In this document: piece after piece, positions 19,115 to 56,055 of the stretch
Layout of the letters: every line of letters starts with the position of its first letter
Position numbering within the stretch: position 1 is the stretch's first letter
NCBI GenBank assembly: GCA_034401795.1
Contig: CM067367.1
Span: 79,749,079-79,813,078 of the forward strand
Direction of reading: 5' to 3'
Length of the DNA stretch: 64,000 nucleotides
Origin: Chaetoderma sp. LZ-2023a
Taxonomy: Eukaryota > Mollusca > Caudofoveata > Chaetodermatida > Chaetodermatidae
Notes under the pieces: generated by a model
Databases searched by the model: none
Seen by the model: only the letters and a program-made list of their open reading frames with translations
What the model was told of the DNA's origin: nothing
Made by a program: the position numbers and the translations under genes

Positions 19115-22100
19115 GGTGCATATTCACATCAAAATGACTGAAAATAAATTTGGCAAAATTATATACTTTTAAAGGCTTAAATTGTTTGAATAGATGTACA
19201 TTTGTGTTTGTGTACATGTAATGAAATGAAATAAATCTTAATATATATGGATCGGGCCGACATTTGGCTGATACATATATAAATGTCTTATGTTGCTGAA
19301 CTTGAAGATAAGATCAAGGAGCTGCAATCGGCTATCCGACTTTTGAAGCTAAAGGTATTAGCACTTCCCATTCAAGGCGAGAATAGTACGAGGACTCTTC
19401 CAGGCCAGTCAATACCAAATAGCTGTGATGCAGTGCACGCTCACTGTGGGACAGCTATTCAAAATCTACATAATCGAGTAATGGCCTTGGAACATAAAAT
19501 GCTTGAAAACATGGAAAATATTGAGAAATCATCGCAGATATATATCTCACCTAACGAATTAACTTCTCAAGATCCGAAAGCACCAATGATCCTTGTACAA
19601 TCTCCTCCTATTGCAACCACAAGCGAGACAGAATACTCTTCCTACATGTATATACCATCTGGGCATAAACAGGCACATCAATCAAGCAGCCAGCAACATG
19701 TAGATAAACCAAGAGCTCATCAGCATAATTTTTTAGGTCAGGGCCACTCCATTTGGCCAAATCGAAGGCAACAACACCAGCCAAATATGTATGCAGATCA
19801 GGCACAAATGCGCAATATAATGGAAGCACAGGAAATAGATTACCCAGATGTGCACATGCAAAGGCAGGATCAATGGCATCAGAACAAGAATGGGTACCAA
19901 ACAATTATATTGCCAAACCAGTTTGTCCATCACCCCCTCAGCAGAGAGGCGCGAGAGTGAAAGATTGCTACACAACACACCCCAATCATTGGGAAGGACT
20001 CCAAACCTAGAGGGTATGGGGGTACTGCGATCATATGGCCGGAGAAAATCAATAAACATATTAACAAGCTCCCTGATGGAAGCGTCCGAATCACTGCAAT
20101 CAAACTCTTGGCTGATATCCCTATTTGCATTATAAAAATGTTTATATGCCATCTAGATCCTCAACAGCTTCAGAAGCAGAATTCACAGGTGTACTTGACG
20201 AACTTCATGAAATAATCGAAAAGTTCAAGTCTACTCATCACATCTTGCTAGCAGGTGATTTCATAGCATCACTACACAAGAGACCAAGGGATTAGAAGAG
20301 ATGCACTACTAAGGGAATTCATGAATGCGCATAGCCTAGACCTTCCATGGAACTATCCTAGACAACACACGTTTTGTTCAGAAAGTGGAAAACTTACTTC
20401 TCAGGTTGATTATTGGATGTATAAAGATTGCGCCAGTAGCATTGTAAGTGGTGTCATTATAAGTGAGCACTTCTTGAACTTATCAGATCATACTGATATT
20501 ACTCTTTCCATTAATATCAGTTTCAAAGAACGACGCTCCATCGCAACAAGAAACAAATAATTCTAATATTTGCTCAAAGATCAGATGGAATAAATGTGAT
20601 ACTACTATGTATAGGGGTATAATTTCTTCAGTCTTCAAAAACATCTCGGAAATCACTTATCATTTAGATGCAGAACTATTGCTGAACCGTGTCTCAGAAG
20701 AAATGTGAGAAGCATCTGTTACTGCCACTGGGATTGTCAAATCAGTCAGAAAGAAACATGCTAAAGGTATTCGAATATGGAGTCCAAAAATTGCCCAAGC
20801 CATAAACAGCAGTAAAGTAGCTTACAAGATATGGGTAGAAAATGGCAGGCCAACCAACCAAGAAAACAATGTGAAATATCGCTAGAAATCAAGCACGTGC
20901 CAATATTTGGATGACTATTCGACTCGGTATAAATCAAAGCAGAATAAAACATCTCAATGAAATTATGGCAGCAGACGAATATGACAAACAAACTTTCTTC
21001 AGGCTTATAGCCAAACAACTTGCCAGCCCAATACAGGGTATTACCCAACTGACACACAATGACAAAGTGTTAACAGATCCTTCTGATATACTACACACAT
21101 TCAGTCAGCCCTTCAGTGCCTTAGCTACATGTACACCTCTCAAGAACGTAGAGTACGATCAAGAGTACAAGGATATTATGGAATTGGACAGAGCATTAAC
21201 GAAGAGATGTGCCTTCAGCATTCAAATATTCAGAACTGTAAAATGCCAACTGTCAGTGAAATTCGCAAGATAATTGTAGGACTGAAACCAAACAAAGCAG
21301 CAGATCCAGCGGGTTTAACTGCAGAACATCTAAAGTATGCCCCACCTGTCGTCATGTAGCTCATGACAGATCTTATGATTTACATAATTGTACAATTATA
21401 ATTATACCAACTGCCATGAAGCAAGGCGTGCTCACACCAATTCTAAAGAAGAGCAAAGATAGTAGATTAGCAACGAATTATAGAGGGATCACGGTATTAT
21501 CAATCATAGGAAAAATCCTTGAGAAAATTGTACTACAGAGGACAAAGTCGTTCCATGATGTTGAACAGTCTAGCTTCCAAACATGGTTTACTGAAAAATC
21601 ATCACCCATAAACACAGCCCTGTTTATCACAGAACTAAAAAATGAGGCCATGGACAAACATGAACCACTATTGTTAGTAACATTAGATGCATGTAAAGCC
21701 TTTGATACTGTATGGCATTCCTCACTTTTGTGAAAGATCTACAGCGTCGGCATAACAGGTTCACTATGGACTATTGTCAAAGAGATGTACACGGGTACCC
21801 AGACAGCCGTCAAGTGAACAAGTGTACATCTCACCCCTTCCAGATACACCAAGGTGTTCGTCAAGGTGGCATACTCTTATCCATTCACTACAAACAGTTC
21901 AATAATAAATTGCTACATATTATCAACTGCAGTGCACCTACATGTGCAGATGATGTTGCAAAATTGGCAGACAATACAAATCACTTGCAGGAGCTTCTCA
22001 CTGTCGTGGAAAGATATACAAAAGAGGAAAGATATACCATTAATCCGCAGAAATCTGCTATCATATCATTGAGCCAACATGTGAAAGAGTTGGGCATGAT

Positions 22101-25100
22101 ATCACTAGCGGGAGATATCATCAAAGAGTCAGTGAGTGAAACACACCTTGGAATTGAGCGGTCAGTTTCGAATAAGGAGAATGTTGAAAAGCGTATCAAC
22201 CCAACTCGCAGAACACTACTCAATGATGGGTGCTGGCTTACATGGACATGGCAGTCTCTCTCCTATTGTATCAAGTGCCATTTGGAAAATCTATTGTCTT
22301 TCCAGACTCCTGTATGGCCTAGAAGTACTAAAGCTAACACAAGTAGCTATTAATGATCTTGAACAGTTCCAGCGATCAGTTTTTTGACAGCTACAATCAC
22401 TTCCTTCAAACACAGCATCTGTCTCAGGTTTGAGTTTGCTTGGTGTAAGACCAGTCCAAGCTGAACTTGATAGCAGGAAACTAATCCTTCTTTGCAATAT
22501 CCTTTCAGAAAAGAATACTATTGAGCATCAAATAGCGGCCCGGCAAATCGCTATGAAAGACATCAACAGCAATTGTTGGTTCTCTGAGTGTCGTAGTATC
22601 CTTCACAAATATGATTTACCAAGCATATATGAGCTTATTCATAACACTCCTACAAAAGGTAAATGGAAATCTAAGGTACCAGACGCAATTAATACTGCAG
22701 TCCAAGCACAATGGCACGAAGAATCGCTAATGAAGTCATCTCTGAAGTACTTGTGTATTAACTCATGTGCGGTGGGATCAGTTCACCATTGTTGGAGCTC
22801 AGTTGATAATAACGTTAGAGATGCTAGGCGTGCTGCCATAAAAGCGAAATTATTAACTGGATCATATACACGTAAATCAAATCGAGCTTGCTTCAATCAG
22901 CATAACACGCCGGATACATGCCTGCTTTGTCGCGATGCTCCTGACGATAGGATTCATTTTCTAGTAACCTGCAAAGCGACCGAAAACTGCAAAAAATTCT
23001 ACATAAATAACATTCAAATCATACTGCAAGACGAAAATCACCCAAACATCATCAAGACCATTATGGCAACTCCTTCACTTGCAGCACAGCTAATATTAGA
23101 TCATGAAAATATGAGGTCAGGGCATGATCTTCAATTATCTCCATCAAACTCAACACAAATTGTTAGGATCACCCGTTTTCTCTGCTATGCACTGCATAGT
23201 ATTAGAAGTAATGCTATGGATCAGCTTGCATCTTCTTCCCCCTACTAACTAGCTTTTAAATGACTGCAATGTACATGTAAGTGTACGAGCTGTTAATATG
23301 AACTGTCTTTTAAATGCAGGAATTAACAAACCTTTGATTCTAGAACACTATAATTGAACGATCTTTAGTTGCAATTTTAATTGAAATCTGACCATATTAT
23401 ACTTGATTGCCGACAATGAGCACTAAGGTTGGTGCCTCGCAAAAGGGATGTCAGAAGAAAAAGAGGAATATTTACCCTGACTTCAGGACTGAACCCACAG
23501 TGGCTGGAATTACTGATACAGTATAGTATGGCGATTTCATTCGGTATAAACAAATATAGTATTTTTAGTTGCAAATTTAAATTGGGGACTCATGTCTCTA
23601 ATTCCATTTCACAACTTAAAAAAATTATATTAATTTATAGGGAATGAAGTCATCATTTGTTAGGATTTATTTCGTTTCCTTGCAAATAGATATACAATTT
23701 AAGCCTCTAAAAGTATACAATTTTAACAATTTAATTTTCAAGCATTCTGGTGTGAGTATGTATCTTTAACAGACTAAATAGATAATCAACATGAGTGTTA
23801 TATATGCCCTGAAAGTTACCAAACTTTTTGATTGCCTCCAGGGCAACCAGTATGTTAAAATTTGCTCATCCTGCAATAAAAACTCATTGTCCAGGATCCA
23901 AGGAATGTGGAATTTTCATGCTCTGGGTTAGAATATCTTGATTTTCATTGTTGCAGGGACAGACCTGGCGTTCACAAATGATTAGCCAATAGATTAGCCA
24001 ACTACACTTTTTCTTAGCCAAACCGTAACAATTTTAGCCAATGTTTTGCAACTGAACTCTACATACCATTAATACAAGATTATGTTGGATATTTTGAAAC
24101 TAATTTGCTTGGAAGCCTAAGGCAGCAACAGCTTCCAGTCAAATTAGTTTAAAAATATCAAAAAATGGGTGCTTTTAATCTGACATATTGGGATTTAAGT
24201 GTTTATTTGGTCACAATAAAACATAATATAAGTACTAGTTAGTTCTTCACTTAGAAAATATGTATAATAATATGATTTTAATGATTAGCCAAATGTTTAG
24301 CCCACCCTGTTTTTTATTAGCCAGATCTCAACTTTAGTAGCATGTGGCTAATTGCCGAATGGCTAGGTTGGTCCCTGTGTTGTGAATCTTGGAATTATAT
24401 AAAAAAATTTTATTGTACATATATTTTACAGAATCGTCTTCAGGAAGCTAAATCTGCAATTGAAGTCTTCATTAAGCACAAAGGTGTACAGGTAAATATT
24501 TTCGTCTTATTCAGGAAATGTTAACGATGGCTCAAGATTGCGATTCAATTTGTGTACATTGTCCGATGTAGACATTAGGCAGTACGTTAACCCTTAACCC
24601 TTACCACTCTGATGTCAAAATTTTTAATTTTCAAAATAAATTAAAAGATTAACTGGTGTTCATTTTTAAACAAATTTCGTGGGAGATGGTGCTGTCGTAG
24701 ACAGCAAAATCGTCCACCAAAATTGTTGAAAAATGGACACCAGTTTCTTTGACACAGGAAAAGATAGAATATTGACATCAGCGTGCTAATGGTTAAATGG
24801 ACAAGCTAGGCAAACCAGCCTCGGCATGGGTGTTGAGGAATGTCTATTTGCAGACCAGGAAATTACAATTTTTTGAAAATATACACATGTAATATGCATG
24901 ATTGGCTTGATAACTGGCCCAGTCATTCCAGTGGTAAATTTTCAAAAATTGTCTTCTTTTGGCATATAAACATTAATTAAACAAAAAATTAAGATTTTAA
25001 CCAAAGGTTAAAGGTTTTCAGGGATTCCTGAATGTTTTGGCAGGCTGACTGAGGCCTATTACTATTAGCTCACCTGGCCTATGAGCTTATGCCATTGCGA

Positions 25101-28100: not shown

Positions 28101-31100
28101 ATATGTAGCTAATCTATTGTTACTTGTTTTGTTTTTGTTGTAGAAAATACACTGTATATCAGTGGATTTATCCAGTAGCTATGAGAATGTACACAATGCT
28201 ATTAAACAGGTAGGATCTCTAAGTACCATTATCACAGATTTCCTCCCAAAATTACATATTATGAAATATATCATGTGTGCATGTGTTCTTAAATCTTAGC
28301 ACGCTGATGTCAAAAGTTTAAATTTTCAAATTAAATTAAGAGATGAACTGGTGTTAATTTTTCAGCAAATTTGGGGGGAGATGGTGCTGTCATAGACAAC
28401 TACATCTTCCAGCAAAATTGTTGGAAAATGTGCACCAGTTTCTTTGATACTGACACAGTAAAAGATAGAATATTGACATCAGAGTGCTAAGGATTATGCT
28501 TATGAATTGTTCAGTTAGGTTTAGGCGGCTAAGTACATGTAGTAGTAAACACAGGAATTTCCATTCTTCAGTGAATAACATTGGGTGAATAAGCATTTGA
28601 AATATTTACTTCAAAGTGCGCATGGTGCTTGAATTCAATAGTCTTTTAAGGTCTTGGCTATTTCAAATTAACTTATTTTTATCAGCTTACGCTTAACAGA
28701 AATCAGGGAAAATGATGTTCTCAAAACTTTTACTCCCCATTGGTAAAAGTACATAATGTCATATTGACTAAACCTTTAAAAGGTCTGTAAGGATCATAAG
28801 AATCCGTGAAAATGTTTGAACAAGCACATTAAAGTGAATAATCGTTAATCTGTAAATATGTGTTGTTCATTCCGTCAGGCAGAAGAGACACTGGGACCTA
28901 TTCACATGCTTGTTAACTGTGCTGGTACATCGATGAGCTGTGCATTTGAGAACACACCCATTGATGAATTCCAGGTATTCTAACTGTTTAAAGGAATGGA
29001 AAAGGGAAATAACAAATGATGTTTATTGGTAATCTCATACCATATTAAATAAACTACCATTGGCAAAGGCATTTACTAAATCTAGGAGCGCTTAACTTGG
29101 AGCCAATTAGTGACTAAGCTGGTGCTTCTCACTCCGCCGTGTGTCAACTGTATGTGCAGGCCTACCTGAATATAACGAAAGCACACCTGAATATAGTTTT
29201 GTAAGCAGTATGAATAGTATTCTCTATAGGCATCTATGTAGAGCGGTTAACTCACTACTGCTAAGTCACTGTTGATCCTTTTGAAAACGTTATATTTGAA
29301 AGTCACTTTTTCTGGTGGAAGCAACACGTTTCGCTCAAAAGGATTTCAAAATACACTGCTGGTTTCCAAGGTCGCAATATGATGCCTACTGAATATTGTG
29401 AAATGTGTGTGACTGAATGTAGACCCTGCCTCTAGAAACAATGTCTTTCAGTCAAATTGTTTTAAAACTGGAAAGTATTTTACCTGTAAGATGCAGTGGC
29501 TAACCAGCTTAGGACGAATATAACTGAGCTTATATGACAGGCTAATGAGCTGTAGCGGGTATTATTTATTCACTCTGCGTACACCAGAGTGCTTGGGTCC
29601 AACTTCGTCACTAATTGGTTCCCGTCCGAATGCCATAAATGGTATTTAACTGCTTTTTTCTAAGTATTCTGATTTATTTGTTTTTCAGTTGTGGCTATAG
29701 GTTGATTATTATATAAAGCTGTCATTTAAGAGCATATGTTAGTTCCCTGATCCTTTCCTTTAACACTTAGCAACCAGAAATTACAAATTCTTTATGATGT
29801 AGGGGGGGATATTCTGGTGAATATGTTGAAACTAATTTGACTGGGACTAAGCTCTCAGTCGAATTCCTTCCAAAATATTCCACAACTTTGCTGTATCTAT
29901 ATTCTTTTCATCTTGAAATTGAGACACTGGGTTAAATGGTTAAGGAACAGTTAATGTTATATTTACTTTTCATCTTCACAGCTTAGTAGAAAGTACACCA
30001 TTGCCTAACTGTCTGCCTGCTAAATTTCTGCAGACTATATTTTACATGGATTCTAACTTTGGATATGCTGAATATTTTGAAAACAATTTTGACTGAGAGT
30101 TGTTGGTGACTAAGTCACCAACAACTTTCAGTCAAATTGTTTTCAAAATATTTAACAGGTCCAGAGCTACTGTGCAAAGAAATCTCTCTATGTTTGTGTC
30201 CGCCGTAGATAAGTTGCGCTCACTGTTTTCAGACAGCACATTTTAATTATGTTAACAACCATATAAACGTGTATCACTGTTTCGTCACCAAGTGAAACTG
30301 GATGGACACGGGTTATATGCTTAAGGTCAGTCTTGCATCTTGTTACATAATATTATTGTCACGGCTTTACTTGTTTTTACAAAAATGGTGATGGTACATG
30401 TGTATGTGTTTATTTTGTGTTTCATTTGCTGAGAGTATACGAAAATGAAGTGAAGCCTTTTGTCTCGTGTCCTATAGTACTTTGCATCAGTACAAGAGAG
30501 CGTATAGGACATAAGAGGTCATAGCTTCTCCTTTCTCAAAATGTGTTGGGGTGTGGGGGGAGCGCATTTGATATACAGTCATTACTCTCAACCATCGGTG
30601 GTGTTCTCCGATGTTCAAGTCATTACCTGATTGTGTTTGACACAATTTCTTGTTGGTGTTTCATACGTAAAAATGCGCAAGGGATGAGCTAGTCTTTGGA
30701 CTTCGCCTCCCTCCCCCCGAATTCACTGACGAATTCTGGGAATATCATAGTGTTAGGGAGGTAAGTATATCTTTTGAAGTGAAATAAATGAAATAACAGA
30801 TTTCTTTTTTCATGAGAGAGTAGTTATACTTACCTCCCTAAGATGGACCCAGCCTCTCTGTCCCACAGAGGCTCGGTCTTTAGGCTTGTTAGTTGCATGT
30901 GTCGGCCAATAGTACCAGCTGAGGCAGTGTCAGTCTGCACATGCGCGAGGTTGGGGCTGGCATGCGGCAGACTGACAGCTAACTCCCTGCCCAGTAGGGC
31001 CACCTTGCGTTTTTAATCTGGGGTTATTGACTCTAGGTCGATATTTAGGAAATATCATAGAATGGTTGGGAGGTTAGTATAACTACTCTCGTGAAAAAAG

Positions 31101-34100
31101 AAATTCGTGATTTTGTTTATTCACTAATAATTATTTAGAATTTCTTTGCGAATCTTGACCATGCAAGTGTTAGATTTTAATACTAACCTGGCTACCACAT
31201 TTTTTTTTTATTGAATGTTTTCTCAGCGTATGATGCAGATCAACTATCTTGGATCTGTGTTCCCAACGCGTGCCGTGATTGACAGCATGAAGTCGCATAG
31301 TTTTGGCAGGATTGTATTTGTTTCATCAGCGGCGGGTCAGCTTGGTGTGTACGGCTACAGCGCATACTCGGCTTCTAAATATGCCCTGCGAGGTTTGGCT
31401 GAAGCTCTACAGATGGAGGTTAGTAAGAATGAGTGCTGTGTCGCAGACATAGAGCTGTTCGAGTATGGAAATAAATAATCGATTAGAATGTCTGGAAAAT
31501 AATTGATTTAATCGGATAATCGATGATTTTAGTCTTGGCAATTTGAAAGTATGCATGGTGAGAACTTTACAAAAATCAAAATAAATAAATAAATAAATAA
31601 ATAGTTTCGTTTTTACTAAAGAAATTAATTACTAAAATACCTGATTTTCTAAAACATTAACAGAATATGCAATTCCCTAAATTTTGGGCATTGTTAGATT
31701 TAGATTACCTCAACTAAGGGTAGGCCTATTAAAAGACTGCAAGACACACAATAGGCCAAGCTATATCAACTAGTCTTCAGATTGGCTGAACATGAAGAAC
31801 AGCCCTGTCCAGCATATTGAAGTCTATGTGGAACCCATTTTCCGCTCATTGGATAATTAGTTTTATTAAAGCGGCGAGTATGTTCAGATTTTCAATCCAG
31901 TAACAAGGTGCCAATTTAATTTTAACGTTACATAAGCTAATTTAACTTTTAATTATTTTGAGTTCGCCCGTAGTCTATCAACGATGTTTCCATATTTATA
32001 AGTTTTACTACCAAAGGTAGATGATGGTTACCAATCAGCGTGATTGATGCCGAGTGGGTCCATACAATGTAGTTGATGGATCCAGAATTTTTCATGGTCC
32101 TTGCGGAAAGCTGTGGCTTCCGTGCTATCAGGATCGTGACGTAACACTTCGATGATTCTGTGGTTAACATCTGTGGGTCCGTGGTTAGGGAGATTAAAAT
32201 GTTGTGCTACAGGCGTGTCTTTGTTGTTTTTAATGTCCCTCATATGTTCTTTGATGCGAACTTGGAATTCTCGTTTAGTTTCACCTACATATTGTTTGCG
32301 GCATTGGTTACAGGTAAGTAGGTAGATAACATTCATTGTGTGACAGAATGTTTTTGTTTTGATGAAATATTTTAGCCCAGTGTGCGAGCTTTTGAAACTT
32401 TTTGTGCTGTCCATGTTTTTGCAAAATAAGCAGTTATTTTTGGCGCATGGATGTATAGGGTTTGCTATGCTTTTCCCTTTTTGTCCGAATTTCCTTGGGT
32501 CTTTGAATTTAGCAGTGACCAGTGTGTCCTTGAAGGACGGATTACGTCTGTGACCAAAGATAGGTGTTTCTGTGAATGTTGCCCGACATTTTGGGCTGGA
32601 CTGTAGTGTTGGCCAATGGCGTTTAATGATTTTTTGGGCTGATTTGCTGTGTTGGTGGAAATCAGTGATACATGGTATCCGAGTGTTGATTTCCTTGGTT
32701 GGTTTTGGCAAAAGTAGGTCTGAGCGGTTTTGTTGAATTGCTCTGTGCAGGCTGGTAATGAGGGTATCTGTTGGGTATCCTCTGATAGCATACTGGTGAA
32801 CCATTTCATGGGCATTTTTGAGAAAATCTGTTTCTCTGCTGCAAATCCTCCGTAGTCTCAGAAATTGACCATATGGGCTCGCTTGTTTGGAAGAGTTTGG
32901 GTGAGCCGATGAGAAGTGTAGATACCCATGTGTATCTGTTGGTTTGGTATAGAGGTCGAAGCCTAAGTGTGTATTTGGGAGGATAAACACTTTTGTATCC
33001 AAGAAATTGATGGAATCTGTGGATTGTTCTACTGTGAATTTAATCGTGGGGTGTGCGTTATTCATATGTGTTATGGATTTTGCTAGTGAATCGGAACCTT
33101 TGGTCCAGATTATGAAAATATCATCAATATAGCGATAGTATAGGGCCGGCTGTGTTTCAGCTGTCCTGAGTATTTTTTCGTCGAGTTGGGCCATAAAAAT
33201 GATGGCATAGCTGGGTGCTAGTTTTGTGCCCATAGCTGGTACCGCCAATTTGGAGATAATGTTCATCATTGAACTCGAAGTTGTTACATGTGAGCACTAG
33301 TTTGAGTAACGTTAACAATCTGCGTGGTGTTAGCGTGCCTGGACAGCCATGTGTTCTCAAATGTTGGGATACAGCTCTAAGACCCTCATTGTGAGGGATG
33401 TTAGTGTATAGTGATGTGACATCCATAGTAACTAGAATGGCATGAGGCACTATGGCGCCAAAAGTTTCTAGTTTGTTTATGAAGTCAGTGGTGTCCTGGA
33501 TGTATGATTTAATATTATGAAGATGAATTTTGATATGTTCATCGACAAAGCTACTGATGAGTTCAGTAGGGCTTCCATTGCCACTGATAATTGGTCTCCC
33601 TGGGGTGAGTTGGCCATTCATTTTTTTATGAATTTTAGGAAGTAGATAGAACCTGGCTGTTCGTGGGTTGTCGGTTCTGAGACCGTTAGCTATTTCTACT
33701 TCGAATAATACTTACCAGATGTACTATTATGATAATGTCTATTATCCAGTCTAGGTCAAAATAAACAATTAAAACTCCGCACTCTCCTGGTCCTGCCCAT
33801 ACTGTGTCCGGGAATACCATAGCCGCAGGTACCGAGTCCATTCCCAATCACAGACAGATTCGTTTATTTTGCGCTTGTTTCAAGTCGCATGTGTTTAGAG
33901 TGTCAATTTATTGATAAATTAAGCAGTTTTAGCGCGTGTTTGTGAAAACCATCGCTGGACTAATGGAGGAACTTGGAAAATCATCACAGGGGCAGGTTGT
34001 ATCAATCTAGAATTTATACATTCGTGCCATAATGCCTGTTTGAAATTTCCTTAAATTGGCACATTGATTTATAATGGTAGCCATTGTTGGAGTCGCTTCT

Positions 34101-37100
34101 GTACCCGTTAACTTTTAGTTTTAATTCGGGTACTCGGTTAATTTTCTCTTGCGACTCGGTTCCTCTAAGATGGATGCGTCCTTAGCCAAGATGGCGGCGC
34201 CCATGTAATATGTCGTTATTGGCTTGGGGTATCCAGGCACTCTGTTATCGCCGATTTTAGCTCTCGCTTCATTGTCGAGGGTGTTTGTAGTGATCGGTGA
34301 GGTTTTCTTGGTTATTTAACGCTAGTTAAAGGCTGAGTTGTGTTTTGTAAAATTTTCACTCAAAAAAGTTTCAAATATTTCCTGCCTAAGACTTGTTATC
34401 ATTAATTTAAAGAAAAAGTTAATGTGTTTAAGAAATCTTAACTATCAAGTCTATTGTGCGTATTGCTCGTCATCACTTGTCATGTGCAGCGTTTTAATTC
34501 TCCTCTGTGTTCGCAGAAACCGAAGAACCCGGACACTTTGTGCCAGAAGTGTAATAGGTTCATGAAACGCAAGTATCTTGGACATCACTGTGTGGCGTGT
34601 GCGAGGTGTAAGGTCGGCAGTCCGTGTGATGTGTGCGCCAAGTGGTCGTCGGCAATGGTGGCTGAGTTTGACAGGGATCGACGGGCGAGGCTGGAGCGCA
34701 TAGAGAAGGATAAGACAGTGAAGCGTCAGCAGGCGTCGTTGGTTGGACTGGAAGGTCGGCTGAATGAGAGGATGGATTCAGCACTGGGCGTATGGGCGGC
34801 CCAGTTCAAGGCCATGTTTGATTCATTACAGTCCACGGGTCCGGTGAGGCAAGCTGGTGCAGGGCAACCATTAGGTGGCCCGGCTAGTTTTGCTGAGGGC
34901 CATGCACCTGACCTTTCTCTGTCTTCGGCTCAAGAGCCGTCGGCAGAGGAAGAAGAGTTCCTGTTGATGGGAGATTCCGGCATGCCGGATCTTTCAATGT
35001 CGGCAATGCTGAGTACGTCCCAGGGGTCTCCCTCGGGATTTGTACGGGTTTGCCAGGCGGATGGTGATGTCGACGTTCCGTCGGGCATTTTTCATCCGTC
35101 ACTTGTGCAACCGGATATGCCGGCGGAGCCGTGGTTTGCGGTTCCGACGGCTATCCCGACGGCGTTGGGTGCGGCTCCTATCGGAGTTACCGTGCCAGCC
35201 GTGATTAAGGCGGTCGTAGTCCCGGATCCCGTGTTGGAGCCGATGGACTGCGGAGAATCCGTATCCGACGGTTCGTTGGATGCTGGTGCCGCCGGTAGTC
35301 GCGCTACGGATGCGCTCTGTCCTGGCAGAGACGTTTATCGTAGCGCTCAGCATGGATCGTCGGTGGCCCTCTCATCCAAGGGTGAGAGGGAAGATGAAAA
35401 CGGAAGCTCTTTAATGGACGATTCCGCTTTCTGCGCCGAGGCTGAATGGGTGCAGGTCCTAGGATGGATGACCAATCGTCTCGGGTTGGCATCGGATCTC
35501 GGATCTCAGCGCGATCCGGCGATGGAGCGGATGTCAGAGCGTGCGGCTAGCGCTCTGTCCAGTGGCTCTTCGGCCATGCCTACACTCCCCTTGGACTCGC
35601 AGACTTCTGACATGTTGGAAGTTGCGGCATATCGTCTGGTTCAGCCAGACTATGCATTGCCCAAGGCCCTGAAGGGGATAAGGAGTAGGGTCCGTTTTCC
35701 GGAGCAGGCCTATCATCAATACGCCAGGGTTCCACGGCTTTCCGTTGCGGAACGTGAGGCGCTGAATAGGCCGTTGGCTGGGAAGGCCAAGGGGCGGTCA
35801 CGTCCCTTGGTTTCCCAGACCAACAAAGACCCGTTTAATGAGCTCACGCTCATTGAGGATGCGGCTAGGGCGGCCATGGCTGCGCTGTCGCACGGGTGTA
35901 CCGTCCTGCAGGGTATGCTGGACTGCACGGCGGAAGGCGGACAGGTGCCAGAGGCTGCTCCCGGAGTTGTTCGGGACACCATGCGCCTGTCTCAGGATTG
36001 CCTGGCCAGGGTGATCACAAGAACTTTAGCAGAGCGGCGGAGAATGGTTCTCGATTGTGTGGAACCAGGACCGGAAATGAGGGCAGCGTTATCTTCTGCG
36101 CCTTTCATTGGTCCAGGCTTGTTCGGCGGCTCGGCACGACAAGCGCTTTCTAAAGTTGCATCGATGGTGGCGGAGCAAGAGGTGGTCGGCAAGTCGTGGA
36201 AGTCGACCAAGAGGACTCAGCCGCAACAGTCCTACCGTCAACACAGACAGGACCAGCAGAGGCAGCGTCCTAGATCGCCCTTCCGTCCTTCTGCCCGTGA
36301 TGCCCATAGGCCATCCGGAGCGCAAGGACCTGGCCGTTCGTCCACATACAAGCCCTCTAGTAAGAGGCCTTATGAGGACGACAGGAAGGGTGGCGGTTCG
36401 GGCCGTGGCGGCTACCGTAAGGATAGTCGCGGCGGCGGTTCCGGACCGTCATACCACAAGAAGCCGCGGGGCGGCCGTGGGGCTCGTTCCTGACGGGTTT
36501 CCGGCGGAATCAATACCGGCGGCTTTGGAAACAAATGGAGTCGAGAATCTTCACCCAAGCGATGTAGCGTCTTGTCGGCTAATCTCGACCGACAACTGTG
36601 TGCAGATTCCTTCCGTCGGAGGCAGACTTCAGCTATTCCTAAGCCAATGGGAACAGGTCGTGCGCGACTATTTAGTCTGTCAGTGGATAAGAAACGGCTA
36701 CGATCCGGACTGGCTCATCCATCAATCGTTAGTTCCGTTAACCTCGACTCCAATATGGACTCCTATTCCAAGGGAGTTAGACCGTCTAGTTGCCATTCAG
36801 TCAGAGATAGAATCGCTTCGTCTGAAGAAGGCGATTCACCTGGTAGCCGATCAGTCATCACTGGGCTTCTATTCGATTATGTTCCTAGTTCCGAAGCGTA
36901 CCGGAGGGTGGAGACCAATTCTCAATCTCAAACCGTTGAACAAATTTATTCTTTCTCCCAGGTTTCAGATGGAGACGGTAGCAGCTGTGATGGCAGGCCT
37001 CAGGAAAGGCATGTGGGCGGTATCAATAGATCTGAAGGATGCTTATTTTCATATTCCAATGTCAATTCCCTTTCAGAAGTACCTGCGATTTGCATTCCAA

Positions 37101-40100
37101 GACAATGTTTGGGAATTCAATGCTCTTCCATTCGGCCTGACCACGGCTCCGAGGGTCTTCACCAAGGTGGTTCTCGCCATGACTTCTTTACTTCGCAGGA
37201 GAAACATAGCTGTTCACACTTACATAGACGACTGGCTGCTAAAGGCGGGGAATCCAGTCACTCTGCGCAGCAATCTGAAGGTAGTCCTAGACTTATTAAA
37301 GAAGCTAGGATGGATTGTGAATCTAGAGAAATCAGAACTGACTCCATCCCAGGAGTTTGTTTATCTGGGAATTTTTTTCAATCTCAGGGACGGCGTAGCT
37401 TTTCCGGCGGAGAGCAGAGTCAGAAGCCTGATTGCAGTATTGGAGTCAGTTTCTCTAGGAGCCTATCTGACGGCACGTCAATTTCTCAGAATACTCGGTT
37501 TGCTAGTATCTCTGGAGAAGGTGGTGCCATATGCGGCGCTCAGGCGCAGGCCGATTCAGATGTATTTGATGTCGTTCTGGTCACAGAGAACAGATCCGTT
37601 ATCTCTGAGAATACCAGTAAAAGAACCATTGATATTCCACCTTCAGTGGTGGTTGTCGGAACAGAATCTCCTGCGAGGTGTTCCTCTACAACCTCCTCAA
37701 CCTCAGATGTCCATGTTCACGGATGCCTCGTTGACAGGTTGGGGAGCGGTATTGGACAATCAGTCAGTGTCCGGGGAATGGGATCGGACCAATGCGCAGA
37801 AACATATCAATGTACTCGAGCTATTAGCGGTGGTATTAGCACTGCAGAAGTTCGAGGGTCGAGTTCAAGACAAAATTGTCCTGGTAAGGACAGACAACTC
37901 AACAGTGGTGTCTTATTTAAACCGCCAAGGCGGGACAAGATCACCGGAGTTGTGTATGATGGTTTGGAACCTTCTGCTGTGGTGCCAAGAGAGGAATATT
38001 ATTCTTCGGGCAGCACACATTCCAGGAAGATTGAACATCTTAGCGGATGCTCTCAGTCGAAGGACGGTTTGTCGTCCGACGGAATGGCAGCTCAACCAAG
38101 TGGTAGCAGAGGTTCTATTCAAACAATGGGGCAAGCCGAATGTCGACCTATTTGCGATGAAGACAAACGCAAAGATGGTCACGTACGTGTCACCGATCCC
38201 GGACCCGTTGGCTCTAGCAGTAGACGCACTGGCGATAAGTTGGAAGGGAATGTACGCGTATGCGTATCCTCCAACAATTCTCATCCCGAAAGTTCTGGCA
38301 AAGATAAGAGAGGGGATGTGCCAAGTACTACTGATCGCTCCTTATTGGCCAGGCCGATCATGGTTTACGGATCTGCTGGACCTTCTGGTCTGCAGTCCAA
38401 TCCCTCTTCCAGACACAAGAGATGTAATCTCTCAGAACAAGGGTCTGTACCTTCACGACAGACCAGAAATGTTCAAATTAACTGCATGGATGTTGTCAAG
38501 CAGCGTGCAATTGAGGGTGGCTTTTCTGAGCAAGCAGCGAAGTTTGTTGCTTCGGCCAGAAGAGTTTCTACCACAAAAACATATAATTATAGAATCAACA
38601 AATTTGCACAGTGGTGTGAGAGAAGAGATATTGATCCCTTTTCTGCATCTGTTCAACACGTAGCAGATTTTGTCTGTCATTTATACGAAGTTGACAAACT
38701 TGTACCTTCTACCCTAGCAGCATATAAGTCTGCATTAGCTTCTGTCATTCCTAGTCTCACCATTGGGGGAGTAGAGAATGACACCTTGAATGAAGTTATT
38801 AAAGGAATGAGCAATCTGCGACCTAGACAGCCAATTCCTATCCCATCATGGAATCTATCTCTTGTTCTACAGGTTTTAGGGCATGCTCCCTTTGAACCGA
38901 TTAGAACTATTGACATTAAACTGTTAACTATTAAATCAGTTTTCTTGGTTGCAGCAGCGTCGGCGAGAAGGAGAAGCGAGATCCATGCGCTTTCTGCCGA
39001 ACAAGACCGTTTTGTCGTCACGGGTGAAGGTTTAAGATTACTTCCACGTCTTTGTTTCCTGGCAAAGAATCAGTCACTTAAATATCCAGGACAGCCGATC
39101 AATTTGCCACGTTTAACTAGCCATGACCCAAATTCTTGTGCTTGGTGTCCTGTCAGATGTCTAAAGATGTATAAGAAACGTACTTCTGAGTGGAGAGACG
39201 ACCCGAAATCTCTGTGGTTATGTCTCAAAGCTCCCCATTTACGTGCTTCGAAAGATACTATTTCTCGTTGGATAGTTGACGCTATTCAGATGTCGCACAA
39301 GATCGCTACAGGAAAGCAGATTGATCGTGCGAATGCCCATGAGGTCCGAGCACTAGCAGCATCATCGGCCCTTTATAAGGGTGTCTCTTTAGAGCAGGTG
39401 ATGTCTGTAGCACAATGGCATGCCGAGTCGTCATTCACTGATTTCTACCTTCGTGACATCTCCAGCACACTTAATCCAGTAGCCGTCGCCAATCTGTCGA
39501 ACCTAAACTAAGCCACGTCCGACCACTACTTCGCACACATCACAAAGGACTTCCGCCTACACTGACCAAGCGCTATGCACATGACTGAGTACGACCGTGG
39601 ATTGGGCCTAGCTCCTGTGATGATCAATACAGATCGACCACTCATAAATGGTGAGTGTTTACATTAATTAAGTGACTATAAATATATTTACTTCCAGTCG
39701 AAATACCAGACTGAGTAAGTGAATAGTCTGGTACAAGAGTATATTTATCCTCTCATACAGACATGAGACTCATTCCAATTTGAAAATCTAATCGATATAC
39801 TGATAGTTTTTTCAAAGATTTGAAGTTGTAGTAGCTTCTTTGCACTCTACTGGACTGCCCTAGCTGAGACTTGGGGCTGACACGGGTCTGGTGGGTGTTG
39901 CATCCCCATGGACATCCCTCTGGTTTTGTGCGGACAAAAGAGGGGGGGGGGAGCGCGGTCTAGACCATAGAAGTTTAGCACTCTATGAGTCAGATAGCAG
40001 AACCCAAGCGTATGCCAGGGTTTTAGTCTCTTCACAACCTTCTCTGTTGGATGGTTGATGAGTGCTGGTTCGAGCCTCACCTCCTCCCACCGGCATTTCC

Positions 40101-43100
40101 TGGCTGTCGAAATCCGGAGTTTATCATAATAGTACATCTGGTAAGTATTATTCGAAGTAGAATCAAAAAAGCATCCGCTTTTGTTTCTACGAGAATTCTT
40201 AATACTTACCAGATGTACTATGGCCCTGCCTCAGCCGCCCCGCTGAGGTGAGGCTGAGCTGCTTTCGCAGTTTGCCAAGGCAAACATAAGACGAATCTGT
40301 CTGTGATTGGGAATGGACTCGGTACCTGCGGCTATGGTATTCCCGGACACAGTATGGGCAGGACCAGGAGAGTGCGGAGTTTTAATTGTTTATTTTGACC
40401 TAGACTGGATAATAGACATTATCATAATAGTACATCTGGTAAGTATTAAGAATTCTCGTAGAAACAAAAGCGGATGCTTTTTTGAGTCTCTTGTGATTTC
40501 ACCACTGAGAATCATGTCCGTGATGGCGGTTTCTACCTTCTCTGCGTGGTACGTGGTGAGATCTGTGGTTTCTTTGGTATAGTAGTGAGTGTCACTAAGT
40601 TGACGAAGTGCTTCCTTTTTGTATGTTTCCGTGTCTTGGATAACAGTAGCCTGGCCTTTATCAGCTTTCTTGATGACAATAGTTTTGTCATATCTTAGCT
40701 TGTTGATAATCTTTCTCTGTGTGTTAGAAAGATTCCCATTATTATGCCTTCGGTGGGCTTTTTTGTTGATGTCGTGTTTGACGGATCTGATGAACGCATC
40801 TAGTGTGGCGTCATTACCTGGGTTTGGTGTCCAGGTGCTGGCTGGTTTAAATTTATGTAACAGTTTGTCCATAAAATTGTTGGTGGGATTATCGGTTGGG
40901 GGTAATGGGTGTGTCCGATGTAGAAATATTTCCGTTTTCCCAGTAGGTGGGTGGGAACTGGAAATGTAGTTTTAATCTCAGTCTTCTAAAGAATCTGTTT
41001 AGATCTTTATGAAGTTGGCCCAGGTTGGGCTCAATGACATTTGGACTGAAGCCCAGTCCTAGATCTAGGACGTCTCGTATCTCCTTGGAGATGGGTTTTG
41101 ATGATAGATTGACAACAAAAGGTTTTTGTTGACTGGAGAATTTATTTTTATAATTTAGAAAAATATTAAAATTACAACATTTATAGGCTGTGCCTACGTA
41201 AGTGATAGTGTTTACATTTATGCAAGTCTTTTGAGTATCTGGAGGACTTGAGCCAGTGTGTCTTCCTTGTAGGGGCGCCTGTCTTGTTTGCCCTGTGGTC
41301 TCCTGGGTGGTGGGCGTCTCTGGCCTGGTTCCCGTAGCGTGTTGTGGTTGCCTGGTCCTGGAGGAGGTCTGCGCCTGTCCTTTTCTCTTGCCCGTACCCG
41401 CTTGGGTGGACTGGTCGACGGTTCCCGTGTTTTCAGTACCGTGGCTCTGACTGCTTTCTGACCTAGAAAAACTGCTTCGTTTTCTGTAGCTGCCCTGAAA
41501 CCCGCTTTGTGTCGTCTAACCAATTCTGAGAGGCGGTCAGCTCTGTTTCTGAGTAATGAATGTAGATCAGACGTCAGTTGGAGACTGTGTTTGGTGAGAA
41601 TGTCTTGCCATTCTTTGACTAGTTCAGTATCATCAGACGGCGGAATGTATCTAACCGTTGCCATGAGGTTGGCGGGTGGTTTACGTGCACCATTGCGCCA
41701 CTGGCGGTACGCCTGTACGTGTTCTTCAGGGATGCAAGGTTTCTTCCGTGGATTCTCATCTGGCCGGCGTTGAATGTCTTCGACTTGTTCAGTCTCCATT
41801 CTAGAATGTTTGCGGCTAGCCAGTGTCTTTCCCACGTCGTCAATGACAGCGTTGTTCAACAGATTCACTACAGTTTCAGTGGATCCGATAGAAGTGATGG
41901 AGCTGCTGCTTGCTGATTCCATACTAAAATTCTTAGTATCAATCACGCTGAACTTCTATAGAAAAATAAACTTAGAGAAGCTTGATTGTGCTTAGTTTGT
42001 CCTGATGCGAATTTGTGTGCAAATTTGAGTCTGGATACCAATACACAGTTTGTGTCTTCCTTTTATACTTTCCAAAAAGCGGCTACATGAGGGTGTGTGA
42101 CCGGATTTGATTTTTGTAGCCGGATTAGACATTTGGTAGCTGGATCTATGGCTAGTGTAGCCGGTTGATCAAGTTATGTAGCCGGGATTAACTGGCTACA
42201 CTAGCCATAAATCCGGCTACCAAATGTCTAATCCGGCTACAAAAATCAAATCCGGTCACACACCCTCGTGTAGCCGCTTTTTGGAAAGTATAAAAGGAAG
42301 ACACAAACTGTGTATTGGTATCCAGACTCAAACTTGCACACAAGTTAGCGTCAGGACAAACTAAGCACAATCAAGCTTCACTAAGATGTTTCCATATTTC
42401 CCAGCATTGGAAAAGCTGAATATTTTGAAAATCATTTGTTAGGCAGCATCAGCTTTACGTCTAATTTGTTCCAAATTTTGTGCATCTATTTTTGCGAAAT
42501 ATCGATATTCTTATTTTTAACCCTATTGAATATTCTGAACCTAATTTTATAGGAACCTGTTCCTGCTGTAGACAGCAACCGCTCCCAGTCCATTTAGATT
42601 CAAAATAGCCTCCAGCACTTCAGCCTTTAGTCTTTCGAGGCGGATATTGTTTTATAAACAGTAGCAATTCAGGGCTTGTTTTCACGACTGACTTGGTTTG
42701 TGGAACCACAGACCCAGGAACCACTGACCATGAACCAGAAATGCCAAAACGGCATTTATGTAAATTGACGAGGCTTGCCGATTGCAATTTCGTGGCAATG
42801 TTCTGAACCCACGAGCATTCTAAATTGTGTTAACTTTAGCAATTTATTTGATCGTAATTTGATTTAGACTTTAATTTCAGTTTATGTAAATCGCAGGCAA
42901 TCACACCCTAAAATATTGACGAAATCTCGTCATTCAGATAAGTTGTACAATTTAGCTGGGCGCCGCCATCTTGAAATTTACAAACCAGTAACCATTGGCA
43001 ACAACGAACCGAGATCAAAACTTGGTCACTGGTTCGACGAAATAAGTCAGTAAATCTGCAACTTCTGGAATGCCAAAACACAGAAACCACGGACTGTGTC

Positions 43101-46003
43101 AGTCAACCAATGACTCTGTCAGTCACGAAAACAAGCCCTAAATGTTAGTGATCACTGACAATCACCGGTATATCAAGAACATAATTATATAAATATTTGT
43201 GCCGAACAGACAGATTTATATTATTTGTTATTCGGAAGTAAAAATCAGTCTGTTATGATGTCGGTACTTCTCCCTTAAATATCCGTGTAAAGTTTCAGCA
43301 ATACTGAATGAGAACTATATGAGAATTAGAAAAATATGAACAAAATACACAATAACCAGAACATAACTATTAGCTTTTAGTGACCATTCCCAATCTTAAT
43401 ATGTCAGTCCAATATGAAAAACCTGGCAGCTAGTTTTTGTTTTGGAAACAACTTAATTTATTTCTAATCTGTACTGTAATTGTTATTATTAATTCCTGTA
43501 TTGTTACTGACAGTTTCTATGCATGAGGATACTCCTAATGATGTATACGCTATTATTGTTTACAATCAAGTTTACCACATGCATAAGTATGCATGCAAAT
43601 TGGGTGGGATATCGCTAATGGATGATCCATTAACATTTTAGAAAGGCAGAATTGTATCTGTATCTGTGACTGCATAGCTTGCTATAAAGTTAAAATTATA
43701 TATTATGTTTAATATGCTTGAAAGAGAATGGTTGGATCAGATCAGATCTGTCACTCCAGTATCGTAAAAATACAAAAAATCTTTACAATTGGACAAAATA
43801 GGAGGGCAATGGTTTGCAGTCTCTCATTGCTCTGGCTGATCATGATTTCTTATGTGTCTTTCAGTTAAAGCCATTTAATATTCACATTACATTGGCATTT
43901 CCACCTGACACGGACACACCTGGGTATGCTGAGGAACAGAAAGCTAAGGTATATAGTACAATCAAGACTTGAATAAGAAATGTTCATTTTCAGATCCCAT
44001 CTGTTTATTCAACATAAAGCCATAAATATGTGTACACAATGTGTAGCAAAAGTAACAAGAACCAAATAATGTACTTTGTCTTCGTAGCTTGTCATGTGGT
44101 TAAAGTATACCTTTGTCCTCATCGTCTGTCATGTTGCCAAACTATTCCTTTCTCCTCATCATCTGTCATATGACCAAACTGTACCTTTGTTTTCATAGCC
44201 TGTTATGTGATCAAACTATGTCATTGTCATCATAGAGTATCATGTGATCAATCTATGCCATGGTCTTCATACGCCTTTAGACCAGCGAAGTCTTGTTTTT
44301 AGAAAATATCGGATGGAACGACTGGCATGATAAATGAGCCAATGATTCCAGTGATAAGCTTTAAAAATAATCTTCACCTAGTTTGCAAATGGGTATTCGT
44401 TAAGGATAGAATTCAATGGAAGAATCAAGTTTTAGCTACATTTTAAGCCTCGTCCATCTCTATCTAGCTTCATCCACACTGTTTGGATCAATCGATCTCT
44501 GCACTCTGAATCTCAATTTTCAGAGAACTATAAAGGTGAGCTGTTGACTATTTTGAAACTAATTTGACTGGGTGCCTATGGCAGCAACAGCACCTGGTCA
44601 AATTAGTTTCAGCATATTCAACAGCATGTTTATTAAATAGTAAATACATAGAATTTGTACAACCCGACAGACTAGTAAGTGTTTAGGATGGACTAAATCG
44701 AGTCATTTATGACATTATTGATTATCACGTCATCCTACACGTCAGATAGTTAATTATGAGGTAATATGATTGACTGAGAAACTGAAATCGTCCATTCAAT
44801 TTACTGGACAAATATTGACAATGTTAGGGTTGTAACTGGTTTTACGATGTTTAATGTTTCAGCCTCAAGAGACACACTTAATATCAGAGACAGCAGGCTT
44901 ATTTCAGCCAGATTATGTGGCCAAGGCTATTCTAGCTGATGCTGTGGTGGGTACAACATTACTATCTCCCAAACCAGACAATTATTCAAATATCCATTTG
45001 CCAATGTTTTAATAAATTATTAAATATATCGTTATGTCTTATATACTCTGAGAGGTAACCGTGGAAAGCTTCTGAAATAGAAAACACAATTTCAATCTGG
45101 CCGTCGATTCCAGGGATTGAAAGCAAGGGAGATCAAGCAGAGGTGACAAACAAAGTTCTTGCATTGAGTCATATTGCAGAAAACTACCCTGAGGAAGAAT
45201 GGATACATGTTTATACAGATGGACCAGGTATCCAGGCTGTCAAGAATGGAGGGGCAGGTGCTCACATTCGGTTTCCATGTGGAGATATAACAGACTCATG
45301 CTTGCCAACAGGGAAGTACTGTAGCAATTACACTGCAGAAATCCAGGCACTGATCTTAGCTAGCCAAATGCTGATACAACGAAAAACCAGAAATGAAAAT
45401 CTTGTCTTCCTGACAGACTCCCTCTCAGCGCTCCAGGCGCTGGAGAGTGGAAAGGAAAGTACACATTTAATTCATGGAAATCTTACGCAACTGGCTAAGG
45501 AGAACAATGTCAACTTACAGTGGATCCCCTCGCATTGTGGAATATTAGGAAATGACAAAGCTGATCAACTGGCTAAGGAAGGGTCAAATAAAGAACAATT
45601 CAACCGTGAGGTTGACTTTGAAGAACTGAAGCATATCATTAAAGCCACAAGAACCAGCAACAGGCAGCATAATGATGCAATACACAGCCTCAGTAGGGAG
45701 GATCAGACATGTATCTTCAGATTGAGGACTGGTCACAATCGCCTCAATGCACATCTTCACCGTCTCAAGATTACAGATTCTGCACTTTGTGAGTGTCAGC
45801 AGGCAGAAGAAACAGCAGAACATCTCTTGCAGCACTGCCAGCGATATGAACGGGCTAGGAGAAGCTTCTGGCCTATTCATGTATCTTTTGAAGAGAAGAT
45901 CAGAGGAGACAGAGACAGTTTGATGACCACTTCAGCTTTCATGCACCAAATAAGGAAAACAGTCTAAGATTACTGTCATGAGAAAGATGAACGCAAGAAG
46001 AAG

Positions 46004-51795: not shown

Positions 51796-53265
51796 ATTAG
51801 AGGGATCCATTTCTAGCTAAGCCCCTCCCATTTCTAGCAATGCCCCTCCCATTTCTAGCTATGCCCCTCCCATTTCTAGCTATGCCCCTCCCATTCCTAG
51901 CTATGTTCCTCCCATTTCCAGCTATGCCCCTCCCATTTCTAGTTATACCCCTCCCATTTCTAGCTATGCCCCTCCCATTTTTAGCCATGTTCCTCCCATT
52001 TCCAGCTATGCTCCTCCCATTTCCAGCTATGCCCCTCCCATTTCTAGCTATGCCCCTCCCATTCCTAGCTATGTTCCTCCCATTTCCATCTATGCCCCTC
52101 CCAGTTCTAGCAATACCCCTCCCATTTCTAGCTATGCCTCTCCCATTTCTAGCTATGTTCCTCCCATTTCCAGCTATGCCCCTCCCATTTCCAGCTATGC
52201 CCCTCCCATTTGTAGCTATGCCCCTCCCATATCCAACTATGTTCCTCCCATTTCCAGCTATGCCCCTCCCATTTCTAGCTATACCCCTCCCATTTCTAGC
52301 TATACTCCTCCCATTTCTAGCTATGTTCCTCCCATTTCCAGCTATGCCCCTCCCATTTCCAGCTCTGCCTTCCATTTCCAGCTATGTTCATCCCATTTCT
52401 AGCTATTCCCCTCCCATTTCCAGCTATGCCCCTCCCATTTGTAGCTATGCCACTCCCATTTCTAGCTATGCCACTCCCATTTCTAGCTAAGTTCCTCCCA
52501 TTTTCAGCTATGCCCCTCCCATTTCCAGCTATGCCCCCCCCATTTCTAGCTATGCTCCTCCAATTTCTAGCTATGCCTGTCCCATTTTCCAGCTATACCC
52601 TCCCATTTCCAGCTATGTCACTCCCATTTCCAGCTGTGCTCCTCCCATTTCCAGCTATGCCCCTCCTCCCATTTCTAGCTATACCCCTCCCATTTCTAGC
52701 TATACCCCTCCCATCTCTAGCTATGTTCCTCCCATTTCCAGCTATGCCCCTCCCATTTCCAGCTATGCCTCCCATTTCTAGCTATGTTCATCCCATTTCT
52801 AGCTATTCCCCTCCCATTTCCAGCTATGCCCCTCCCATTTGTAGCTATGCCCCTCCCATTTCTAGCTATGCCACACCCATACCTAGCTACATTCCTCCCA
52901 TTTCCAGCTATGACCCTCCCATTTCCAGCTATACCCCTCCCATTTCTAGCTATGCCCCTCCCATTTCTAGCTAAGTTCCTCCCATTTTCAGCTATGCCCC
53001 TCCCATTTCTAGCTATTTCCTCTCATTTCCAGCTATACCCCTCCAATTTCTAGCTATACCCCTCCAATTTCTAGCTATACCCCTCCAATTTCTAGCTATG
53101 TTCCTCCCATTTCTAGCTAAGCTATGCCCACCTTTTATGCGTGTTCGGATTGATTTATATACTTTGAATCCTGACATCACAGAATTCATCTCCAAGGTAA
53201 CTATACAGGCAAGCTGTTGAATATTTTGAAACTAGTTTTACTTGGTGCTGTTGCTGTTACTCCGT
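51796..53265 (+). mobile_element. Family C element carrying a 1.3-kb minisatellite
   Basis: The left boundary GGGATCCATTTCTAGCTAAG and the right part (TTGATTTATATACTTTGAAT CC, then CAAGCTGTTGAATATTTTGA AACTAGTTTTAC..GCTGTTGC TG) are normal family C sequence. Between them the motif is amplified to about 60 units (see next entry). The right hairpin arm is incomplete. Confidence 0.7.
51800..53125 (+). repeat. Minisatellite, 21-bp unit
   Basis: The unit CTAGCTATGCCCCTCCCATT T varies at C/T in TCTAGC/TCCAGC and in ATGCCCC/ATGTTCC/ATACCCC. The length of 21 bp is a multiple of three, so both strands show spurious repeating reading frames (for example LPFLAMP or NGRGIAR repeats). Higher-order blocks recur: 52384-52500 and 52784-52900 share the same order of variant units. 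Confidence 0.95.
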
Positions 53266-55512: not shown

Positions 55513-55914
55513 TTGGGTCAAAATCTTTATGAAAAATGTACCAGAAATAGTCATATTGCTTCTTCTCCTTACCATTCTGAGCGATTTCAACCATATTGGG
55601 CTGAAAGGATCCTGTCGTGATAGGCTCCAGAACTACCATACAGAATTTTGATTGTTCAATCTTTTTTGGGTGAAAATCTTTTATGAAGAATTTACCGGCA
55701 ATGGTCAAAATGCTACTCTTCCATAGCTGCTTGACATATTTCAATCAAATTTGGCTAGATGCATTCTATGGTGGTATGTTCTAGAACTTCTATTCAGAAT
55801 TTTTATTGATCAATTTTGGGGTGAAAATCTTAGATTTTATTAAAAGAATCTAGTGGAAATGGTCAAAATGCTACTCCTTAGCTGCCTGACATATTTCAAC
55901 CAATTTTGTCTAGT

Positions 55915-56055
55915 GTTGGGATTGATTTATATAATCCGAATCCTGAATTCCCAGAATCCTAATTTCATGGTAACTATACAACTAACCTATTGAATATTTT
56001 AATAACCTAATTTGATGATGCGTGTGGGTTGGGGGTTGTTGGAGAGAGGTGGGTT

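Follow-up and report, generated by a model that had tools for sequence, protein, structure and literature searches.

Nested insertion of a DIRS1-like retrotransposon in a Penelope-like element of Chaetoderma, and sister copies that suggest a dyad-symmetric target joined at a single bond

How does a retrotransposon that leaves no target duplication choose the site, and the bond, at which it enters a genome? The question is raised by a stretch of 64,000 nucleotides from the caudofoveate mollusc Chaetoderma sp. LZ-2023a (assembly GCA_034401795.1, contig CM067367.1, positions 79,749,079 to 79,813,078 of the forward strand), hereafter the window, in which a DIRS1-like retrotransposon lies within open reading frame 2 (ORF2) of a Penelope-like element (PLE). 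There is nothing unusual in the nesting as such, and entry without target duplication is a textbook property of DIRS elements. The notable part is a pattern in the targets that is invisible from one insertion: sister copies, collected by searches of the whole 2.44-Gb genome, point to a preference of this DIRS family for partly palindromic targets and to a crossover at one particular bond.

The boundaries of both elements can be read to the base (Table 1). The PLE spans 31998-42384 on the minus strand between perfect copies of the 15-bp sequence GATGTTTCCATATTT, as the preliminary description of this DNA had proposed; the window holds only these two copies and the bases outside them differ on both sides in a self-comparison of the window, which rules out a longer repeat behind the duplication. 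The DIRS element occupies exactly 33694-40485. When the two PLE halves were aligned without this interval to the seven other PLE copies fetched, all five that span the site (L002, L004, L005, L006 and L008; L003 and L007 do not) read uninterrupted as ...GCTAT/GT..., with no base gained or lost at 33693/40486, L004 and L005 carrying single substitutions a few bases past the junction. The internal complementary region (ICR) of the DIRS element independently yields the same ends, as had also been claimed: the reverse complements of 33694-33720 and 40440-40485 meet at 40162/40163, within an exact match of 101 bases, and the outermost bases are therefore 33694 and 40485. The predicted DIRS-free allele of the locus would read AGCTATGTCTCT.

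The insert adds 6,792 bp, a multiple of three (3 x 2,264), and no ORF2 codon is split at the junction; translation across the site gives the local peptide of the window in L008, and the same peptide with substitutions in L004 and L006. The earlier claim that omission of the DIRS element restores one frame to the two ORF2 halves thus holds around the junction but not elsewhere, as the frame of ORF2 in the window shifts at some distance from the junction, between 33157 and 33296. Of the dated order that had been announced, only the relative part stands, the uninterrupted paralogs placing Penelope first and DIRS later. Divergence among copies agrees with this order: DIRS siblings are 99.06-99.82% identical to the window copy in 23 of 29 cases (mostly over 1.7 kb, two of the 23 over less) and 93.1-98.7% in the other six, and 39 other scored PLE copies show 96-98% identity over up to 601 bp, both lists consisting of top-scoring copies only. 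Integration of the DIRS element without target duplication is borne out by the uninterrupted PLE paralogs and by element ends that 52 paired DIRS copies, that of the window among them, have in common.

The inserted element is DIRS1-like, as it combines a reverse transcriptase (RT) with RNase H, inverted terminal repeats, an ICR and the lack of a target duplication. Its RT-RNase H frame and the overlapping tyrosine recombinase (YR) frame are both open. The recombinase matches Phage_int_SAM_4 (E 5.4e-5) and Phage_integrase (E 0.041) in Pfam, both below cut-off, an integrase in PHROGs (E 0.014) and, among solved structures, one integrase chain (E 0.99 and 0.79 by sequence). The R...HxxR...H...Y positions, whose residues we take to be catalytic, are retained in relatives at 66-70% identity. 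The predicted model of the recombinase is poor (mean predicted local distance difference test score, pLDDT, 45.7), too poor for a fold search. The C-terminal stretch of the RT frame presumably resembles a methyltransferase; Pfam returned no methyltransferase domain in this frame.

Two sets of sister copies were assembled. Set 1, from a left-end query that began at the terminus 33694, comprised the best 40 of 1,425 candidates and gave 33 pairs of element ends, 32 of them usable, to which the window was added; set 2, from an internal query in the right repeat that anchors inside both ends, comprised the best 40 of 1,603 candidates and gave 19 new pairs besides 14 shared with set 1. Contributing no usable pair to set 1 were a tandem array (L012-L014), a copy without a right end (L018/L044), inside which lies an end of the second DIRS family described below, and L118/L095, which was paired in set 2. 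From the 52 paired copies, window included, L111 was dropped as occupying the same site as L073 (n=51) and, where stated, L127 as well (n=50); the motif tests on each set separately retain L111. All 40 scored copies of set 1 align from base 33694, where the query began. In set 2, 19 of 19 copies start with TTCTA and 19 of 19 finish with TTTTTTGA, and a right end was obtained for 32 of the 33 set 1 pairs, every one TTTTTTGA.

Across the 51 distinct insertions, all in the same genome, the target columns are dyad-symmetric, about TGAA-6 bp-TTCA. With far-flank composition as background and Bonferroni correction over 80 positions, the strongest preferences are G at -9 (38/51, p 7e-21), T at +2 (43/51) and C at +3 (45/51, p 7e-35), each significant in set 1 and in set 2 separately. 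Further significant positions are -8 (A in 29, G in none), -7 (A in 28), -4, -1 (A in 27, T in 18), +4, +5, +6 and +9, and nothing is significant outside -9..+9. The dyad centre lies at -3.0, i.e. three bases left of the crossover, with a matrix symmetry of r 0.76 (next best 0.27), and complementary pairs about it number 187 of 510; in 500 random flank sets the count never exceeded 177, even when the best of 40 centres was taken. A correlation of pairing inside individual sites was looked for and not seen, the observed level being reached by 310 of 1000 column shuffles, and the claim is therefore limited to symmetric column preferences.

Two further observations concern the flanks themselves. 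Two DIRS copies, L019/L045 and L127/L128, share an insertion point within one repeat family and have unlike flanks, which suggests that one target was hit twice independently. In L109/L082 and L116/L089 the left flanks are identical over 40 of 40 bases and the right flanks unrelated, possibly through recombination between copies or an assembly fault.

The 6-bp centre is bounded on its right by the crossover in every pair examined. Of the 51 sites, 24 have a target base other than the A of the element at -1, 24 have a base other than its T at +1, and 10, the window insertion among them, differ from the element at both; at these 10 the bond is fixed exactly. For ten distinct sites a paralog across the junction reaches 85% identity or more, the level below which paralogs were left out of the uninterrupted-site counts, and in each the best match is uninterrupted at the junction. 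One of the sites, L117, lies in a tandem repeat and shows a gap at the junction in two of eight spanning matches, and the paralogs of L010 are other units of the same array. A crossover at the opposite edge of that centre is seen in no pair: TTTTGA closes 0 of 50 left flanks and is missing from the right end in 0 of 52 pairs.

A DIRS relative that lies downstream of the L073 insertion, as its host, represents a second family, with the junction CGTTTA^TTTCAC (L130). Five right ends of this family in the loci fetched read CGTTTA followed by ATTTG, GTCTG, ATCTT, TTTTA and TTTTG; the first three place the crossover after the A, and the last two, being junction-like, fit this position and cannot place it. 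Next to the crossover, the inner arms of the two families are unlike on either side, GTAGAA/TTCTAC in the window family versus GTGAAA/TTTCAC in the second. A genome search with the right repeat of the second family, in which very common words were skipped, returned no matches, not even the repeat itself. At least 4 of the 52 sites (L025, L032, L073 and L111) lie in this second family. Going by the title of a 1984 report by Cappello, DIRS-1 of Dictyostelium reportedly inserts into other DIRS copies, and the window family would resemble it in this respect. The element also appears to hit itself: contig C2542 (L012-L014) carries head-to-tail tandem DIRS units of ~5.1 kb (33694-38813) joined as GAGCA/TTCTAC, in which the left end meets a motif-like site in the recombinase gene of the element itself, GGAATGAGCA^ATCTGCG. 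The array looks like a circle that integrated into itself and was then amplified in tandem. By eye, the insertion L025 hit the corresponding place in a member of the second family. Within the window, just left of the PLE, 30706-31121 is an end fragment of a DIRS relative, 80% identical to L130 and with an ICR of its own.

Taken together, we propose the following sequence of events. A PLE of the endonuclease type (GIY-YIG) inserted first and left the 15-bp duplication. A later DIRS1-like element, its ends joined in a circle-like junction TTTTTTGA^TTCTAC, then recombined into PLE ORF2 at AGCTAT^GTCTCT, adding 6,792 bp with the target neither duplicated nor deleted. The recombinase of the family favours targets of about TGAA-6 bp-TTCA, and in all pairs examined the joining took place at the bond that borders the 6-bp centre on the right. 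As only one junction class is seen, we infer, with somewhat less than even confidence, that one strand is exchanged and the structure then resolved by replication. Tyrosine recombinases usually cut as 5'-arm^spacer, and this polarity would make the bottom strand, with the sequence of first-strand cDNA, the one exchanged.

There are bacterial parallels to such a scheme. Recombination of integron attC with attI and integration of CTX phage proceed by a one-bond crossover next to TT, with single-strand exchange and a folded junction. By analogy, a single cDNA-sense strand of the DIRS element may be exchanged with a dyad-symmetric double-stranded target, the joined ends forming an integron-like hairpin and replication resolving the product; this fuller version is likewise held at less than even confidence, and the likeness is an analogy only, the present case being a eukaryotic retroelement known from sequence. 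In both families the junction folds into a hairpin much more stable than those of shuffled sequences (z -11.1 and -12.1; -7.5 and -8.5), with much of the stability due to the inverted repeats. Going by its title, a 2020 report by Malicki reportedly describes 'linear, single-stranded cDNA intermediates', which would fit the exchange of one strand.

How well do these readings stand against others? That the arrangement is an assembly artefact or a product of ectopic recombination can for practical purposes be dismissed: no point in support was found, the duplication is intact, the exact ends are common to the 52 paired copies and the PLE paralogs are uninterrupted. A motif produced by base composition or by a few often-hit repeats is very improbable. 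Many flanks do match other fetched loci, i.e. are repeats, and L019 and L127 share one place of a repeat family; however, the background was taken from the far flanks, significance ends at +-9, both sets agree, and without L111 and L127 TC at +2,+3 is found in 36 of 50 sites versus 6.4% expected and GA at -9,-8 in 20 of 50 versus 5.5%. Only slightly better placed is the published model, by which a 3-bp circular junction recombines with an identical genomic 3 bp, both strands being exchanged and the crossover not located more finely. Piednoel et al. 2011 (PMC3266345) word DIRS integration as recombination with an identical 3-bp sequence, and of the 28 elements in their Table 3, 18 carry one trinucleotide, often ATT, at both extremities. 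ATT, the triplet of the window element, is also the commonest target triplet at -1,+1,+2 in our data (11/51), but 40 of 51 sites carry other triplets and the target in the window was TGT, as the uninterrupted PLE copies show; for this family an identical 3-bp target is ruled out. Among the ten published elements with unlike ends, moreover, six (AcDIRS1, AcDIRS2, AmDIRS2, NveDIRS6b, TnDIRS1a and XtDIRS2) differ in the middle base alone, the outcome expected of a crossover after the first base, and AcasDIRS1, AmDIRS1, BfDIRS2 and BmDIRS1 differ otherwise (PMC3266345). We thus consider the model highly unlikely.

A canonical two-strand exchange over the 6-bp centre, with mismatches always repaired toward one strand, is a far stronger contender; we place it a little short of an even chance, and such one-sided repair of a two-strand product is about as likely as one-strand exchange. 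The dyad centre fits two half-sites, and 6-8 bp between the cuts is usual for tyrosine recombinases. Nevertheless, two-strand exchange with cuts 6 bp apart and unlike centres should leave both junction classes after replication, and the TTTTGA counts above reveal only one; further, the inverted arms of the element itself lie 22-23 bp apart by hand count, not 6, and a second cut would therefore not be equivalent. Several points weigh against our own reading. One-strand exchange rests on an absent junction class, and strongly one-sided mismatch repair looks alike. The 51 sites are the top-scoring copies among 1,425 and 1,603 candidates and not a random sample, only 19 left ends are unbiased, since the set 1 query started at the terminus, and left flanks ending in CTTTTTTGA were set aside by the scripts in order to skip the ICR. 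The symmetry lies in column make-up, pairing within sites being no higher than in shuffled columns; in 8 of 50 sites TC at +2,+3 and GA at -9,-8 are both lacking; paralogs below 85% identity are often gapped near the junction (e.g. L065 and L075); and the catalytic domain of the recombinase is weakly recognized, by the Pfam, PHROGs and pLDDT values given above. With all of this weighed, we hold with high confidence that the PLE came first and the DIRS element later, with exact ends, and that this family has one crossover bond and a target motif of dyad symmetry.

The host element is a PLE whose endonuclease is recognized above the Pfam cut-off (GIY-YIG, E 3.5e-6). Its reverse transcriptase, in a frame split by the insertion and the frameshift, reaches E 9.3e-5 and 22.7 bits against a cut-off of 29.6 (RVT_1), and a YIDD motif is read in the translation. 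Pseudo-long terminal repeats (pLTRs) are present in an inverted, head-to-head arrangement at the right end, where a window self-comparison gives a 91% palindrome (41957-42396). The right end of the PLE is the inverted pLTR copy, a correction to the preliminary description, and the match of this copy extends one base past 42384, into the target duplication. The 41 scored pLTR matches of the genome search, the inverted copy of the window included, fall into two classes by starting point, query base 10-13 (27 matches) and base 1 (14 matches). We read the two classes as terminal and ORF-joined copies, respectively, from which the pLTR edge was set; the base 10-13 edge is the right terminus here. 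The 3' match ends at 31995-31999 in six of seven other copies and at 32023 in the seventh, L004, and the window self-comparison shows no pLTR copy at the 3' end. No Rfam family reaches its gathering score within the window; a ribozyme reading of the PLE ends was rejected, as nine of ten weak matches fall on the pLTR palindrome (42118-42298), which by itself accounts for their scores. The pLTR pair (41971-42384) also contains a short stem-loop whose stem varies between the two copies by paired changes, AATTTG..CAAATT versus AACTTG..CAAGTT.

Table 1 Coordinates of the two nested elements and their parts in the window.
Feature	Position	Strand	Basis or remark
PLE target duplication, left copy, GATGTTTCCATATTT, 15 bp	31983..31997	.	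sole other window copy at 42385
PLE 3' part (RT C-terminal part and GIY-YIG)	31998..33693	-	duplication edge, GIY-YIG match, ends of other copies
PLE ORF2 frame carrying GIY-YIG and, below cut-off, RVT_1	32028..33296	-	Pfam
PLE ORF2 frame, junction into RT core	33157..33693	-	frame change to next ORF between 33157 and 33296
Left crossover bond, target T / element T	33693..33694	.	ICR and PLE paralogs
DIRS1-like retrotransposon, complete, 6,792 bp	33694..40485	+	ICR, PLE paralogs, sibling copies
Left inverted terminal repeat	33706..33877	+	98.3% to right repeat over 174 bases
gag-like open frame	34442..36493	+	by position; no Pfam match
RT-RNase H frame	36081..38663	+	RVT_1 E 2.7e-23, RT_RNaseH E 6.9e-7
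YR frame	36494..39511	+	YR domain about 38468-39511; long overlap with RT frame
ICR	40121..40221	-	minus strand equals joined element ends; folds as hairpin
Right inverted terminal repeat	40276..40448	-	window self-comparison
Right crossover bond, element A / target G	40485..40486	.	ICR and PLE paralogs
PLE 5' part (pLTRs, ORF1, N-terminal part of ORF2)	40486..42384	-	duplication edge, other copies, pLTR matches
PLE ORF2, N-terminal part	40486..40971	-	in frame with 33693 and below
PLE ORF1 frame, 245 aa	41218..41955	-	no Pfam match
PLE pLTR, promoter side	41971..42190	-	edges set from other genomic copies
Inverted pLTR copy, right PLE terminus	42186..42384	+	matches query 12-211 on minus strand
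PLE target duplication, right copy, 15 bp	42385..42399	.	exact repeat comparison within window

Elsewhere, the window holds long tandem repeat arrays at 51797-53130, with open frames on both strands, and at 53677-55916, and further retrotransposon pieces with RT/RNase H matches at 62012-63199 (-), 21260-22353 (+) and 45059-45967 (+).

Both elements have close counterparts in the literature. In the available part of PMC3846280, Pen2a of Adineta vaga shares with the window PLE the GIY-YIG domain, the head-to-head inverted pLTR, a 5' palindrome and a target duplication; the window PLE differs in its 245-aa upstream frame, in lacking a pLTR copy at the 3' end and in the length of the duplication, 15 bp compared with 8-10 bp in the Adineta vaga elements. 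The DIRS1-like elements in the part of PMC3266345 at hand (e.g. SkoDIRS1) share with the window element the overlapping RT-RNase H and recombinase frames, the inverted terminal repeats, the ICR, an ATT-type junction and the absence of a target duplication. At 6,792 bp the window element is longer than the 28 published ones (3,974-6,283 bp) and, unlike in the model of that paper, its target triplet need not equal the junction. The dyad target motif and the single crossover bond resolved here are not described in that part of PMC3266345, and neither a DIRS target consensus nor one-strand exchange was found in the literature listings or in the accessible portions of the open-access texts PMC3266345, PMC5633606, PMC2685390, PMC9210276 and PMC3783388.

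In conclusion, a high-copy, young DIRS family in a repeat-rich genome provides many insertions with readable empty targets, and these turn the identical-3-bp model of DIRS integration (PMC3266345) into a base-resolved one, in which half-sites related by a dyad flank a 6-bp centre and the crossover occurs at one bond. If true, one-strand exchange would account for three features, the crossover at a single bond, the acceptance of non-identical targets and the absence of duplications, and would link the inverted repeats and the ICR to a single-stranded cDNA intermediate. Wherever a genome contains young DIRS copies, the idea can be checked from sequence data only, and the target preference and the one-bond crossover bear on the mode by which DIRS elements integrate.

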